The notes beneath the pieces are model-generated. The model had not been told where the DNA came from and searched no databases. It saw nothing but the letters and a program-made list of their open reading frames with translations. Both the position numbers and the translations under genes were made by a program. DNA of 64,000 bases from Deltaproteobacteria bacterium HGW-Deltaproteobacteria-6 (GTDB lineage Bacteria > Desulfobacterota > Syntrophia > Syntrophales > Smithellaceae): NCBI GenBank assembly GCA_002840435.1, contig PHAT01000004.1:62001-126000 (forward strand). Reading direction: 5' to 3'. Shown one piece after another: positions 36,647 to 41,780 of this stretch (within the stretch, counting starts at the first letter, position 1; every line of letters begins with the position of its first letter).

Positions 36647-37834
36647 ATGTCCGATTACAATAGCTCTTCGTTTGTTCCGATTCCGAAACTCGCGGGTTTT
36701 GCCATGGGGCTGTTTGCGGTCCAGACGTTCTGGGGATTTACCTGGGCCACTCTGCCCCTCTACCTGAAGGAACTCACCGGCTCGAATACGGCAACAGGCA
36801 TTATCATATCGACAACAGGAATCACCGGCCTGTTCTTTCCGATTTTCGCGGGCGCGGTATCCGACCGGATTAACACGCCGCTGGGCCGGCGCAGACCGCT
36901 GATCGTGGGGGGATGGATTCTGACCTGCATGATGGTCCTGCTCCTGATGCGGATTGATTCCCTCCTTGTGGCATTGCCCGTGATCGTTCTCGCCTACGCG
37001 GGATTCTTTCTCGCCATCGGCCCCTATTTCGCGCTTCTTCCCGATACGGTCCCCGTATCGCAGCGAAGTTTCGCCTCGGGCATCATGTTTCTTGTCGGGG
37101 GCATCGGGATGTTGAGCTACCTGATGTTTGCCGCCCGCCTGTGGGAAACGTCGCATACCCGTCCGTTTATCTGGGTTGTGATTGCAGTTGCCGTTTCCGT
37201 TGCCATCATGTCCTTCTCCGTGCGGGAGTCAAGGACGCCAGGCCCGACGACCCACTCAAACCTTCTAAAGGGACTTGCCGGCCAAAAAAATCTGCTGCGC
37301 TTCTTTGCCGGCATGACGCTGCAATGGATCGGCCTCTGGATGGTGAGCGCGTTTTTTGTCATCACCTGCATGGCGCTTTTCGGGCTGACCGTAGAACGTG
37401 CGGTCCAGGCGTTTTTTGCGATGAATGCTTCCTTTGTTTTCTTCGCGCTTCCCGCGGGGCTGTTGGCGCCCAGGCTGGGACTGAAAAAGACAACGATCCT
37501 CGGGGTGGCCACTCTGATCGTCTGTTTTTGTTGTATTCCTTTTATCAAATCGTATTCGACCCTGATTGTTTTTATGATCATCTCCGGCGCGGGATACGGG
37601 ACGGTACTGGCCGTATCTTACCCATTCTTCCTCAGCCTGATCCCGGAGGGCAATACCGCCTCGTTCGTCGGCCTCTATCATTCCTGTCAGAACGGGACGC
37701 TGCTCATCGGACCGGTCGTCGCCGGATTGATGATCGACCATTTCGGATACCTAACCCTTTTCTACGGAGCAGCCGCGATGCTGCTTGCGGGTATGGCGAT
37801 GTACCTGACTGTGAAAAAGAAGGCTGAAGACTGA
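36647..37834 (+). CDS. Major facilitator superfamily transporter
   Basis: A 395-residue inner-membrane carrier with about twelve hydrophobic segments. The MFS loop 2-3 motif appears as GAVSDRINTPLGRRRPLIVGG, the form typical of the SLC45/sugar-cation symporter-like branch; a repeat-half equivalent lies near GLLAPRLGLKKTTILG. The substrate is not identifiable. It is preceded by GAAAGG, and no partner genes are next to it. The cassette array begins about 520 bp downstream. Confidence 0.85.
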   Translation: MSDYNSSSFVPIPKLAGFAMGLFAVQTFWGFTWATLPLYLKELTGSNTATGIIISTTGITGLFFPIFAGAVSDRINTPLGRRRPLIVGGWILTCMMVLLLMRIDSLLVALPVIVLAYAGFFLAIGPYFALLPDTVPVSQRSFASGIMFLVGGIGMLSYLMFAARLWETSHTRPFIWVVIAVAVSVAIMSFSVRESRTPGPTTHSNLLKGLAGQKNLLRFFAGMTLQWIGLWMVSAFFVITCMALFGLTVERAVQAFFAMNASFVFFALPAGLLAPRLGLKKTTILGVATLIVCFCCIPFIKSYSTLIVFMIISGAGYGTVLAVSYPFFLSLIPEGNTASFVGLYHSCQNGTLLIGPVVAGLMIDHFGYLTLFYGAAAMLLAGMAMYLTVKKKAED

Positions 37835-38353
37835 AGGCCGAAGACTGGAGGCTGGAGGCCATTATATTCTTTGACATTTACTGAAGCCTGCGTTAATTAA
37901 TCAACCAGTCATAAGTACCAACTCACAAAAAAGATGTCTGCGGCAAAAAAATCTCCGGCGGGGCTACGGCTCATGATCAAACACGGCATGCAGAGACAGA
38001 CGAATTCAAATTTTACGGAACTTCTTTTAAGTAAGAGGAGAGCGACGGTTGTCACTTTCCTCTTTTTATTTCAGTCCAGCAATTATGGGTCCCCTGTGTT
38101 TTCAACGGATCTATAGGCTGTTTTTAGTTTGCGAACGGGAGAGGAAAAAGGGTGCAATGGAATGCCGGAATTGGTTTATTTTCCATGTTTACCCGTTTAA
38201 TATCGTAATAAGTGGAATTTGGTATGGATAATTGTAATAAGTGGAAAATAGAATGTCTGATTTTCCATGTTTTGTATCTTAATATCATAATAAGTGGAAA
38301 ATAGGGCCATCTATATGGTCTGATATGAGGGAACGTTTTCCGCTAATTACACT
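37835..38353. repeat. AT-rich region 5' of the cassette array with aataagtggaa repeats
   Basis: This 519-bp region has no supported gene. It contains two related ~39-bp elements, 38179-38217 and 38261-38299, which share ttttccatgttt, taatatc and taataagtggaa. A further taataagtggaaaatag copy lies between them near 38235. The spacing of the long copies is 82 bp. These could be protein-binding iterons, an attI-like or promoter region for the array, or decayed cassette ends. Confidence 0.5.
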
Positions 38354-38360
38354 GTTGGCT
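38354..38360 (+). other. 5' boundary (GTTGGCT core site) of cassette 1
   Basis: GTTGGCT, the exact complement of AGCCAAC, which opens the attC of the same cassette at 38884. This is the boundary heptamer that integron recombination between G and TT leaves at the 5' end of a cassette. No full attC precedes it, so this may be an attI-like junction or a truncated site. Confidence 0.7.
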
Positions 38361-38389
38361 TGAAATATATATTTGCAAAAGGGGTGAAC

Positions 38390-38884
38390 ATGGGTGCTAT
38401 AAAAGATTTAGTCGATTTGGTTTCGCAACTCTCCAGCAGTATGGATGATAGGAAGTTTGCTGCAGAACTTCGCCAAATTCAAGGCATGATAGGCGGAATT
38501 CAGTCCGAGCATGCGGCTATACACGAGAAACGCATTGCACTGATGACGGAGAATGAAAATCTGAGGCAAACTATATCTTCTTTGGAGCAAAAGATATCTG
38601 AACTTCAACGAGAAATAACGAATATAAGAAATATACCTGCGGATAAAATTGATAAACTTCCGGAAGACGCAGAAAAAATGCTTCTGTTCCTCGCTAAGAA
38701 TGAAGATCTTTCATCTGGTCTAATTGCGCTTGGTATTTCACTTGATCGTGTTCGCACTGAATATTGGCTCGAAGATCTATCAGATAAAGAGTTCGTCTAT
38801 TCATCATTGATAATGGAAGATGAAACTACATATTCCCTTGCTCAAAAAGGCAGAGAGTATTTGATAAAGAGAAATTTGATATAA
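38390..38884 (+). CDS. Cassette 1 protein: coiled coil plus winged-helix-like C-terminus
   Basis: A 164-residue hypothetical protein, the only gene of the first cassette. Residues ~35-95 are heptad-rich (HAAIHEKRIALMTENENLRQ, SLEQKISELQREITNIRN) and should form a coiled coil. Residues ~105-164 (MLLFLAKNEDLSSGLIALGI, TYSLAQKGREYLIKRN) look like a small winged-helix domain of the kind that ends DNA-binding or oligomerising proteins. No family was recognised. The ATG at 38390 follows GGGGTG, and the gene ends inside the R'' heptamer of attC1 (stop at 38882-38884). Composition is more AT-rich than the core genes around it. Confidence 0.75.
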   Translation: MGAIKDLVDLVSQLSSSMDDRKFAAELRQIQGMIGGIQSEHAAIHEKRIALMTENENLRQTISSLEQKISELQREITNIRNIPADKIDKLPEDAEKMLLFLAKNEDLSSGLIALGISLDRVRTEYWLEDLSDKEFVYSSLIMEDETTYSLAQKGREYLIKRNLI

Positions 38885-38939
38885 GCCAACAAGAACAATA
38901 CACCCGATCGCTACGCTCCGGCTGATTTTTTCGTTGGAC
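38884..38939 (+). other. attC site 1 (integron cassette recombination site)
   Basis: 56 bp from AGCCAAC to GTTGGAC. Inside are paired arms around the conserved core atcgctacgctccgg (cacccg against cggctg, one mismatch). AGCCAAC is the exact complement of the cassette 1 boundary at 38354, not of the GTTGGAC at its own 3' end, which belongs to cassette 2. This is the diagnostic arrangement for integron attC sites. Confidence 0.85.
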
Positions 38940-38953
38940 GAAAAGGACAATGA

Positions 38954-39451
38954 ATGGATATTAGCCACGACATAACCTATCAGTATGTAGCCCGTGTCAA
39001 GAAACACGATGATGAACTTGGTATAGTATTGAAGGGGCACCTACTTCTTGAACATGTCATGAATTTAATGATTGAGAAGGGATTTAAACAACCTCGCGCA
39101 ATCTTAAGCGATCATCGCTCTTACTCTTTCTCGGTAAAGGCACGCTTGCTCTTTGAGAGCAATGACCTGCCAGAGCATGTGTTCAACAACATTACCCGCC
39201 TTAATCGAATTAGGAATGAATTAGCCCACAAGCTCAACTTGGACGAAGCGAAAATTGATTTTTGTTACAGCAGAAATGACAAAGAAGGACAGAGAGAAAT
39301 AAACTTGAAACAAGTCGTGAAGAAAAATAGCAACCCCCTTAAAAGGTATTTGTACATGCTTGCATTCGGAACGTTATCACAAATACAAAGGGAGTTTTTT
39401 CAGCGATATGGAACTTATCCTCTATTCGAGAAAACCATTGAACTGAAATAA
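38954..39451 (+). CDS. Cassette 2 protein: HEPN-motif (MltR/DUF4145-like) protein
   Basis: A 165-residue all-helical protein. LKGHLLLEHVMNLMI near the N terminus and TRLNRIRNELAHKLN at ~81-95 match the layout of MltR/HEPN-like families. R87-N-x3-H92 fits the Rx4-6H signature of HEPN ribonucleases, including the polar residue after Arg. Active HEPN proteins cut RNA as toxins or in phage defence, whereas some family members are regulators, so the activity is a prediction. No antitoxin-like nucleotidyltransferase is in the same cassette. The start at 38954 follows AAAAGGACA. Confidence 0.72.
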   Translation: MDISHDITYQYVARVKKHDDELGIVLKGHLLLEHVMNLMIEKGFKQPRAILSDHRSYSFSVKARLLFESNDLPEHVFNNITRLNRIRNELAHKLNLDEAKIDFCYSRNDKEGQREINLKQVVKKNSNPLKRYLYMLAFGTLSQIQREFFQRYGTYPLFEKTIELK

Positions 39452-39524
39452 ATAATAATTTTCTGAATTAGGACCAACAAATCGGGAGAGAAGCTAAATT
39501 AGTAGGACTAAAATATTAATAATT

Positions 39525-39579
39525 GTCCAACAATTTGTTTGAGCCGATTGCTACGCTCCGGCTCAACTCTGCGTTATGT
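39525..39579 (+). other. attC site 2
   Basis: 55 bp from GTCCAAC (39525-39531) to GTTATGT (39573-39579). The inner arms ttgagccg and cggctcaa pair perfectly over 8 bp around attgctacgctc. GTCCAAC is the exact complement of the cassette 2 boundary GTTGGAC at 38933-38939. The core sequence is shared with attC1 and attC3. Confidence 0.88.
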
Positions 39580-39593
39580 AAAAGGATTAAAAT

Positions 39594-40181
39594 ATGAATA
39601 AATGGAGAATCCGCTGCAAAAAGGCACCCGATTCCGTTAGAAGAAGGCACCCCAATGGAGAAAGAAAGCGGATAAATCAAATAATTCAGTTTATTATAAT
39701 ACCAATAATAGTTGGTCTTGTTGGTGTATCTGGCACTTTAGGTGGGGTCATGATAGCCAACCGGCATTATGATCGCGTTGCACGGACGCAAGTTGCAATC
39801 AATATGGAAACATTTCTCTTCCAACAACGGCTGAAAGTGATAGAGAGAGCTGCAAATATATTTGGTAAAATTCCAGGAATAGAAGACATCTGGACAGAAT
39901 ATCTTCAGAACACTAAATTTGAAAAAAATGGTGTTTTCAAAGCGCCAGTTCCATTAGCAGAAAAACTAGCTGATTACCAAGGTGAATTTGATAGTGTAAT
40001 ATATTTAGCAAGTATATACTTTGGCCCAAAGACCAGAGCAGCCATTACTGCTTTAAGCAATGAAAAAGAGCCATGGTGGAAGAAAAAGAAAGAGAATAGA
40101 AATGCATTCATGGCTGCTTTAGTTGAAGAATTAGCACTTGGTATAAACCATATTCCAAAAACACTCAAAGAGGTTGAATAG
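39594..40181 (+). CDS. Cassette 3 protein: single-pass membrane protein of unknown function
   Basis: A 195-residue protein with a basic N terminus (RCKKAPDSVRRRHPNGERKR) and one hydrophobic segment at ~29-54 (FIIIPIIVGLVGVSGTLGGV). A soluble helical domain of about 140 residues follows. Orientation rules predict the N terminus inside. No known domain was recognised. It fills the third cassette; the stop is 4 bp before attC3. Composition is AT-rich, like the other cassette genes. Confidence 0.72.
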   Translation: MNKWRIRCKKAPDSVRRRHPNGERKRINQIIQFIIIPIIVGLVGVSGTLGGVMIANRHYDRVARTQVAINMETFLFQQRLKVIERAANIFGKIPGIEDIWTEYLQNTKFEKNGVFKAPVPLAEKLADYQGEFDSVIYLASIYFGPKTRAAITALSNEKEPWWKKKKENRNAFMAALVEELALGINHIPKTLKEVE

Positions 40182-40184
40182 AAT

Positions 40185-40240
40185 ACATAACAAAATCAAT
40201 ACACCCGATCGCTACGCTCCGGGTGATTTTTTCGTTAGCG
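40185..40240 (+). other. attC site 3
   Basis: 56 bp from ACATAAC (40185-40191) to GTTAGCG (40234-40240). ACATAAC is the exact complement of the cassette 3 boundary GTTATGT at 39573-39579. The inner arms are aatacacccg and cgggtgatt, complementary except for one extra A, which matches the extrahelical base expected in a folded attC strand. No CGCTAAC partner was found downstream, so the array seems to end here. Confidence 0.88.
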
Positions 40241-40302
40241 GTGAACGAGAGGGACGCCCGTAAAATAGTAAGTTCCGCGATTAAGAAGAGCGAAAAAACT
40301 GG

Positions 40303-40327
40303 ATTCCCGCCGTCGCGGGAATGACGA
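40303..40327. repeat. Short REP-like palindrome after the cassette array
   Basis: gattcccgccgtcgcgggaatgac forms a stem of cccgc and gcggg. It is a widespread type of intergenic repeat. It lies in the 220-bp spacer between attC3 and the next gene. Confidence 0.5.
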
Positions 40328-40402
40328 AGATAACGAAAGCGACAGAAATATAATGGGAACGACCGTCCCCTTTTTTCACTCAAAAATCAAAGGAGAAATG
40401 TC

Positions 40403-40783
40403 ATGAAAAAAACCATGCGAGTCCTGGCCGCGATGCTCTTTATTGGTTTATCGGCCAATACCGCCTGCGCTGGGTCGATGCAGTTGACCTTGGCCAACGA
40501 TTCACCAGATGTTTTGCTGGTTACTTATTGGATCGGCGGGACTGTATCGCCGACGCTTACTTTAGCTTCCGGAGGAGGCGCCAAGAGACGAATAGACAAC
40601 CCGACTGCGGCCGCAAGGGTTTGCTGGGGCACAACGCCCGCAGAACTTTCAGCCAATTGGTTTGGACGCGATGTCCCGTTATGGCAAAACGGCAAGCCCA
40701 CCGACAATACATGCCATTATAAAAAATGCACAGCCGATTGCTATGGAAAGACATATCGGTGGCATTGTGATTACGAAAAATGA
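40403..40783 (+). CDS. Small exported protein of unknown function
   Basis: A 126-residue protein with a clear signal peptide (MKKTMRV, hydrophobic core, cleavage near ACAG). The mature ~102 residues are beta-rich at first (MQLTLANDSPDVLLVTYWIGG) and end in a Cys-rich tail (CHYKKCTADCYGKTYRWHC) that could form disulfides. No family was recognised. AAAGGAG precedes the ATG. It overlaps nothing and is followed 10 bp later by the amidohydrolase gene, so the two may be cotranscribed. Confidence 0.68.
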   Translation: MKKTMRVLAAMLFIGLSANTACAGSMQLTLANDSPDVLLVTYWIGGTVSPTLTLASGGGAKRRIDNPTAAARVCWGTTPAELSANWFGRDVPLWQNGKPTDNTCHYKKCTADCYGKTYRWHCDYEK

Positions 40784-40793
40784 GGAGGACAGC

Positions 40794-41738
40794 ATGATCA
40801 TCGATTCCCATTACCACTATATGACCGGCATGAGCGAGAAAGCAGCGGCGGAGATGGTTGGAATGATCGCCCATGAAGCGAAAACAATGGGGATGAATCC
40901 GGATTATGACGCTCTGTTAAAAACCGCCGGGGAGAACTGGGGAGATCCGCTGGCGGACCGGCTCATCGACAGGATGGATGAAGGGGGCATTGACATCACC
41001 GTTGCCGTGAATGTGGACAACATACAAATTAAACCGTTAACTCCCGAAATCATGCAAAAGCAAAACCGGATGCTGGGCGAAGCGGTCCGAAGACATCCCG
41101 GTCGCATCATCGGCCTGGCGGGCATCGACCCGAGAAGGCCGGAAGCGGCGGAAATGGCCTGCGTCTGCCTGGAAGAGTATGGCCTGCGGGGCATTAAATA
41201 TCATCCGGATCACGGCTTTGACCCGGCGGGCCCTGAATCCTGCAAAGTTCTGGAAGTCCTGGCCAGACATCAAGGGATTCTTCTTTCCCACACCGGCCCG
41301 CTGATGCCCCGGGGACGCAGCAAATTTGCCGACCCCCTGATGCTTTGCGACATCGCCGTGGACTTTCCGGAAATAAAAGTGATTGCCGCCCACATGGGCG
41401 GTTACATCAACTGGCGGCCCTGGGCATCTCTGGCCGCCTATCAATCCAATATGCACGGAGACCTGGCGGTTTGGGACACGCTGGCCTATAAGAATTACGG
41501 CCTTTTCTGCCGACAGTTGCGAGAGGCAGTTGATCTGGCCGGTCCCACAAAAATTCTGTTCGGCTCCGATGCTCCCATTCAGACGCTTCTGTATCCGATT
41601 AAAACCATGATCGGGTTCATCCGGGACCTGCCGCAAAAAGCGCCGGCCGGCATTCACTTTACCGGGAAAGAAGTGGACCTGATGCTGGGCGGCAACGCCC
41701 GGGCGCTTTTCGGACTGGCGGATGCTTCCCCCCAATGA
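40794..41738 (+). CDS. Amidohydrolase-2 family protein (ACMSD-like TIM barrel)
   Basis: A 314-residue TIM-barrel hydrolase/decarboxylase. The first metal motif is IIDSHYHY, where the family normally has DxHxH. Further marks are GRIIGLAGIDPRRPEAAEM, GLRGIKYHPDHGFDP, the metal His in LLSHTGP, VIAAHMGG, and the catalytic Asp in ILFGSDAP. ACMSD relatives decarboxylate or hydrolyse aromatic acids. The substrate is unknown. The start at 40794 has GAGGAGGACAGC upstream; an earlier in-frame ATG (40662) lies inside the preceding gene. Confidence 0.85.
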   Translation: MIIDSHYHYMTGMSEKAAAEMVGMIAHEAKTMGMNPDYDALLKTAGENWGDPLADRLIDRMDEGGIDITVAVNVDNIQIKPLTPEIMQKQNRMLGEAVRRHPGRIIGLAGIDPRRPEAAEMACVCLEEYGLRGIKYHPDHGFDPAGPESCKVLEVLARHQGILLSHTGPLMPRGRSKFADPLMLCDIAVDFPEIKVIAAHMGGYINWRPWASLAAYQSNMHGDLAVWDTLAYKNYGLFCRQLREAVDLAGPTKILFGSDAPIQTLLYPIKTMIGFIRDLPQKAPAGIHFTGKEVDLMLGGNARALFGLADASPQ

Positions 41739-41780
41739 ATGACGGGACGAAAATCAGTTTCCGGACAGTAATTTCTGTTG

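Follow-up and report, generated by a model that had tools for sequence, protein, structure and literature searches.

A cassette array in a Smithellaceae genome that very probably descends from a chromosomal integron deprived of its integrase gene

The window, that is, the whole stretch of 64,000 nucleotides analysed here (G000:C4:62001-126000), belongs to a 4.09 Mb genome that is 99.06% complete, with 4.16% contamination, and is assembled in 53 contigs. Within it, three attC sites alternate with three gene cassettes (Table 1). A preliminary description of this DNA had reported three attC-like sites, three pairs of complementary boundary heptamers and circular cassettes of about 579, 640 and 661 bp. 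Our coordinates for the sites match those given there, all three heptamer pairs are exact and the cassette sizes are reproduced exactly. The sites (n = 3) have a single orientation and are spaced 640 and 661 bp apart. The cassettes are A+T-rich, with a GC content of 0.37-0.39 (0.39 in cassette 1) compared to 0.515 for the window.

Table 1. Features of the array and its flank in the window, and further attI-bearing arrays of the same genome
Feature	Position	Strand	Description
Probable intI remnant	38172-38186	-	start codon and at most five codons (MENKP); ATGGAAAATAAACC match
attI site / intI leader region	38187-38354	+	direct repeats of type TTCCACTTATTNNNATATTAAA / TTCCACTTATT
Gene cassette 1, 579 bp	38355-38933	+	GTTGGCT (38354) complements AGCCAAC (38884)
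Cassette 1 ORF, 164 aa	38390-38884	+	conserved MGxIKDxxDL N-terminus, coiled coil, possible winged-helix C-terminus
attC site 1	38884-38939	+	located and modelled as attC
Gene cassette 2, 640 bp	38934-39573	+	GTTGGAC (38933) complements GTCCAAC (39525)
Cassette 2 ORF, 165 aa	38954-39451	+	HEPN-like helical protein, Rx4H motif RNELAH
attC site 2	39525-39579	+	located and modelled as attC
Gene cassette 3, 661 bp	39574-40234	+	GTTATGT (39573) complements ACATAAC (40185)
Cassette 3 ORF, 195 aa	39594-40181	+	basic N-terminus, one probable transmembrane helix, helical C-terminal region
attC site 3, array end	40185-40240	+	located and modelled as attC
attI-bearing array	C1:434.9k		intI stub of ~49 codons, in-frame stop
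attI-bearing array	C3		intI stub of ~56 codons, ends beside tRNA-Arg gene
attI-bearing array	C2:138k		two attC sites; intI stub of ~29 codons
attI-bearing array	C2:17.0k		no intI codons
attI match, weaker	C6:125.0k		no intI codons

The attC sites share the core GCTACGCTCCGG, which occurs three times in the window, exclusively at these sites. All five of its occurrences in the genome are in an attC context, and a reversed-pattern control has none. The two matches outside the window lead to an array of 14 attC sites on contig C3 (344.3-351.3 kb) and to a two-site array at 138 kb of contig C2. The preliminary description had regarded the heptamer complementarity between the head of each cassette and its attC site as hard to obtain by chance. 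Over 16 boundaries, three in the window and 13 in the C3 array, 61 of the 64 variable positions are complementary, a score reached by none of 100,000 permutations.

Seventeen attC sites of this genome were aligned on the bottom strand and compared with a structure drawn from the expected attC anatomy: an R box, an L box with one extrahelical base, an unpaired centre and a variable terminal stem. The R and L stems, the extrahelical base, the unpaired centre and the variable terminal structure are all present. In the alignment, 96% of cells are paired and eight pairs have changes on both sides. Double-change cells number 29, compared to 9.0 expected in shuffles; 0 of 500 shuffles attain the covariation seen, and sliding the register makes the signal collapse in every case. 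The extrahelical base is conserved (column 51, between pairs 16-52 and 17-50), and the terminal stem of the long variants also covaries. The earlier assignment of the sites to a single host-specific family is supported.

The attC scores given here come from a model built from the 17 sites (R1), which is distinct from the covariance model of IntegronFinder. With R1, the window sites reach 63-71 bits (E 1e-15 to 1e-17), scores that are not independent because all three belong to the training set. Independent support is provided by the covariation, by the permutation test of the boundaries and by matches to R1 elsewhere, where the attC family of the window recurs beside intI in genomes of the same genus and the same family. 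No relevant Rfam family was found in the window, nor at the locus under permissive settings.

The three cassette products are nearly orphan proteins. That of cassette 1 has weak Pfam matches to coiled-coil families and to HTH_45 (E 0.008); beyond the coiled-coil similarity nothing significant was found, and a plasmid search gave no match. Homologues occur in five other genomes of the order, and one of them (L211; relative in G077) sits between two attC sites. The product of cassette 3 is an orphan and is predicted to be a membrane protein. It has no Pfam or PADLOC match and no significant NCBIfam match, and searches of 154 further genomes of the order, genome_contigs, viral contigs and plasmids found no homologue.

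Our best guess for the product of cassette 2 is a HEPN RNase-type protein. Its Rx4H motif is kept in three distant homologues as RNDAAH (L126), RNKLAH (L214) and RNRAAH (L215), and one of these relatives (in G224) is encoded directly behind an attC. The best matches are below significance, both in Pfam (HEPN_Cthe2314, E 0.024) and in the PDB (HepS 9oij, E 0.36). A fold search gave no significant match, with HEPN and MntA-HepT entries recurring at E above 4, and AF2 models made without alignments are poor (pLDDT 49 for cassette 2 and 55 for a second model). Nothing significant was found for cassettes 2 and 3 in PADLOC, NCBIfam, Pfam, plasmids, phages, viral contigs or genome_contigs. The earlier view of the array as a reservoir of novel genes is partly right, since all three products are near-orphans, but it needs amending in that cassette 2 is HEPN-like and relatives of cassettes 1 and 2 adjoin attC sites in other genomes. 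These genes may include an effector of the HEPN type.

The preliminary description found the cassettes but missed what lies to their left, an attI site and the probable start of an integrase gene. In a DNA search of the genus, window positions 38173-38360 match sequence that abuts intI in G004, G007, G012 and G014. The attI block is 73-85% identical to intI-flanking sequence in G003, G004, G007, G009, G012, G013, G014 and G019, among others; when the C1 copy and seven relatives with intI are aligned to the window, the identities are 0.72-0.84. This homology ends exactly at the GTT at 38354, beyond which identity on the cassette side is 0.17-0.38. At the other end, past putative intI codon 5, identity to intact loci is only 0.25-0.35. 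Because identity drops on both sides, the block has one sharp edge at the recombination point and one abnormal edge where intI should run on. Judged by sequence comparison, the array starts at a recognisable attI of the genus's own integrons. Direct repeats like TTCCACTTATT are candidate integrase-binding repeats in known attI sites, and those in the block may play the same part. It is plausible that the cassettes are transcribed from a predicted promoter in the retained attI/leader region, where promoter-like matches (8 in 38225-38373) are not commoner than in shuffles (7.4).

Next to the attI block, the minus strand carries ATGGAAAATAAACC, a match to the beginning of intI in G007 and G003 (L087, L090). 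Some caution is needed, since ATGGAAAAT occurs also in an upstream repeat inside attI, and a stub of five codons is so short that it could be just conserved leader. A TIGR02249 profile search of contig C4 gave no match, which accords, as far as tested, with the earlier statement that the window holds no tyrosine recombinase. Extended to the whole 99%-complete assembly, the search found no intI above cut-off; weaker matches are read as XerC/D-like and phage-type recombinases. With 53 contigs and 99.06% completeness, the assembly could lack a replicon that carries intI. Integrase-less cassette arrays are termed CALIN (PMC9024848), and the array qualifies operationally: it has at least two close attC sites in the same orientation, and contig C4 carries no integron integrase. 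The preliminary description rightly called it CALIN-type and integrase-less but, having overlooked the attI, did not see in it a former complete integron.

Among 19 genomes of the same genus, ten have an intI above cut-off. One of these relatives is G007 (JAUYFM010000033.1, Smithellaceae bacterium), and the nearest named integrases come from Smithellaceae/Smithella and other Syntrophales metagenome-assembled genomes. Some integrases are ~430-475 aa long, roughly 100 aa of which form an N-terminal extension (L113, L114, L115, L116, L120, L121, L122). They coexist in the genus with integrases of 330-345 aa, sometimes within one genome (G004), and are perhaps akin to the longer IntI clade of PMC2426708. 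Other genomes, namely G019 (two loci), G009 and G003, carry attI followed by a truncated or decayed intI (L091, L093, L094, L090), and several of these stubs end between intI codons 43 and 60. A breakpoint hotspot near codons 43-60 (C1, G003, G009, G019) is not claimed, as the stubs are decayed and their ends fuzzy; it is also disfavoured by other stubs, which break at about codons 5, 29, 56 and 130. None of the relatives searched carries both flanks of the window array or an intact intI at this chromosomal position, so the deletion is not seen as a before-and-after pair.

With high probability, the window array is a decapitated complete integron: a chromosomal integron from which the integrase gene has been lost. 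Because the attI block lies to the left of cassette 1, the array reads as a former complete integron and not as cassettes at a random site. An IntI of ~330-345 aa, the type kept in genomes of the same genus, would once have been encoded to the left of the array and divergently from it. This enzyme would have inserted circular cassettes singly at attI, between G 38354 and T 38355, with the folded bottom strand of each attC as the recombination substrate. A later deletion would have taken intI from about codon 6 on and left attI and the three cassettes, which may now persist as a static, possibly transcribed block. With no integrase found in the assembly, the cassettes are expected to stay frozen in place, barring the arrival of an integrase or one acting in trans.

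A different course of events, in which attI and the array were separated by rearrangement from a still existing intI and moved here, is improbable. The breakpoint lies at the start of intI, where a deletion and a rearrangement would look alike. Pieces of attI may also be copied within the genome: at C2:17017-17112 (L097:7017-7112), the C3-type attI recurs at 99% identity across 96 bp, together with a single cassette and without intI, which suggests recent copying or movement. Against this course, neither intI nor its 3' part was found elsewhere in the assembly.

Slightly less probable again is an off-target origin, one of those proposed for CALINs (PMC8618304), in which a trans-acting IntI inserted cassettes at an attG-like site other than attI and the array never had an integrase of its own. 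The genome does contain about seven attC loci without a recognisable attI (C1:9k, C2:115k, C2:240k, which is weak, C4:323k, C5:411k, C5:742k and C8:107k), and these may be off-target insertions or older wreckage. Apart from C2:240k, each has one or two attC sites; at several, attC and the upstream boundary heptamer match, the pattern of cassettes inserted singly. At the window locus this origin is contradicted, because a random target would have no attI block, whereas the left flank is the full attI/leader block shared with intact integrons.

It is very unlikely that the loss is an artefact of assembly, with intI dropped or contigs misjoined at a repeat. The genome is a draft, and assemblies are known to fragment at intI and attC repeats (PMC9024848), but the stubs continue into ordinary sequence inside contigs of 411 kb (C4), 917 kb (C1), 371 kb (C3) and 541 kb (C2). 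Their breakpoints and decay differ, as with the in-frame stop in the C1 stub, and similar stubs are present in G003, G009 and G019 of the same genus. Finally, short palindromic repeats are common in the genome (for example, at 40292-40328), but the idea that the sites are chance palindromes or a dispersed repeat instead of attC is refuted by the covariation and the boundary rule, by the spacing of one gene per unit and by the occurrence of such sites beside intI in relatives, and can be dismissed.

An integron that lost its integrase gene is a known kind of element, as precedents for CALINs, intI pseudogenes and the integrons of Xanthomonas attest. Of the hallmarks of a complete integron, the window array has attI at its head and R''/R' complementarity, and it lacks an intact intI beside attI. 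Like other CALINs (PMC9024848), it combines at least two attC sites and their cassettes with the lack of a nearby intI. Many CALINs are described by attC alone; this array retains a recognisable attI, from which its origin can be read. It resolves how one integrase-less array arose: intI was lost while attI stayed in place, and such loss is among three proposed CALIN origins (PMC8618304). Sedentary chromosomal integrons of Smithellaceae/Syntrophales (for example, L128 = JAUYFM010000033.1 and L131 = MVRV01000125.1) have the same attI and attC family but still carry a full-length intI beside attI. Integrase function is commonly lost in 'pseudo-integrons', with about one third of intI genes being pseudogenes (PMC2426708); in the window, almost the whole of intI is deleted, which differs from inactivation by a stop or frameshift. 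In the literature searched, no single paper named Syntrophales, integron and attC.

The closest parallel is provided by Xanthomonas, where intI has been inactivated repeatedly in a lineage-specific manner while arrays are conserved (PMC12444791). There, too, an ancestral integron had its intI deleted or truncated, and the attI side and cassettes were kept and are presumably frozen. Xanthomonas keeps one conserved site (ilvD) plus scattered CALINs, whereas the present genome has six attI-bearing arrays at different sites, of at least two integrase types (~330-345 aa, and ~430-475 aa with the N-terminal extension) and all without intI. What is less ordinary is that intI is gone from every one of the six attI-bearing arrays found in one genome, the window array and five others, which keep from 0 to about 56 intI codons.

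The C3 array encodes a BrnT-type toxin, a DUF2939 protein matching PADLOC PDC-S55 and a SnoaL-like protein, and one of its cassette proteins shares its N-terminal part with defence effectors. Such content is a typical mix for a chromosomal integron. It is conceivable, but rather doubtful, that the lineage lost the integrase from every integron in separate deletions, with attI and cassettes retained, through genome-wide, repeated selection for frozen, domesticated cassette arrays. If so, the stubs in G003, G009 and G019 would extend the frozen-array trend across the genus. These data favour neither selection nor drift as the cause of the six-fold loss. With intact integrons, decapitated integrons and scattered attC loci side by side, the genus is a tractable setting for asking why integrases vanish.

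Two observations concern the surroundings of the array. Short repeats, ctggattcccgccgtcgcgggaatgacg and gaagactgaaggccgaagactggaggctggag, flank it on both sides (40292-40328 and 37819-37861) and recur at many sites in this genome and in related ones. To the right of the array, an amidohydrolase gene (40783-41765) has a 92% identical, internally deleted partial copy at C3:120265-120634.
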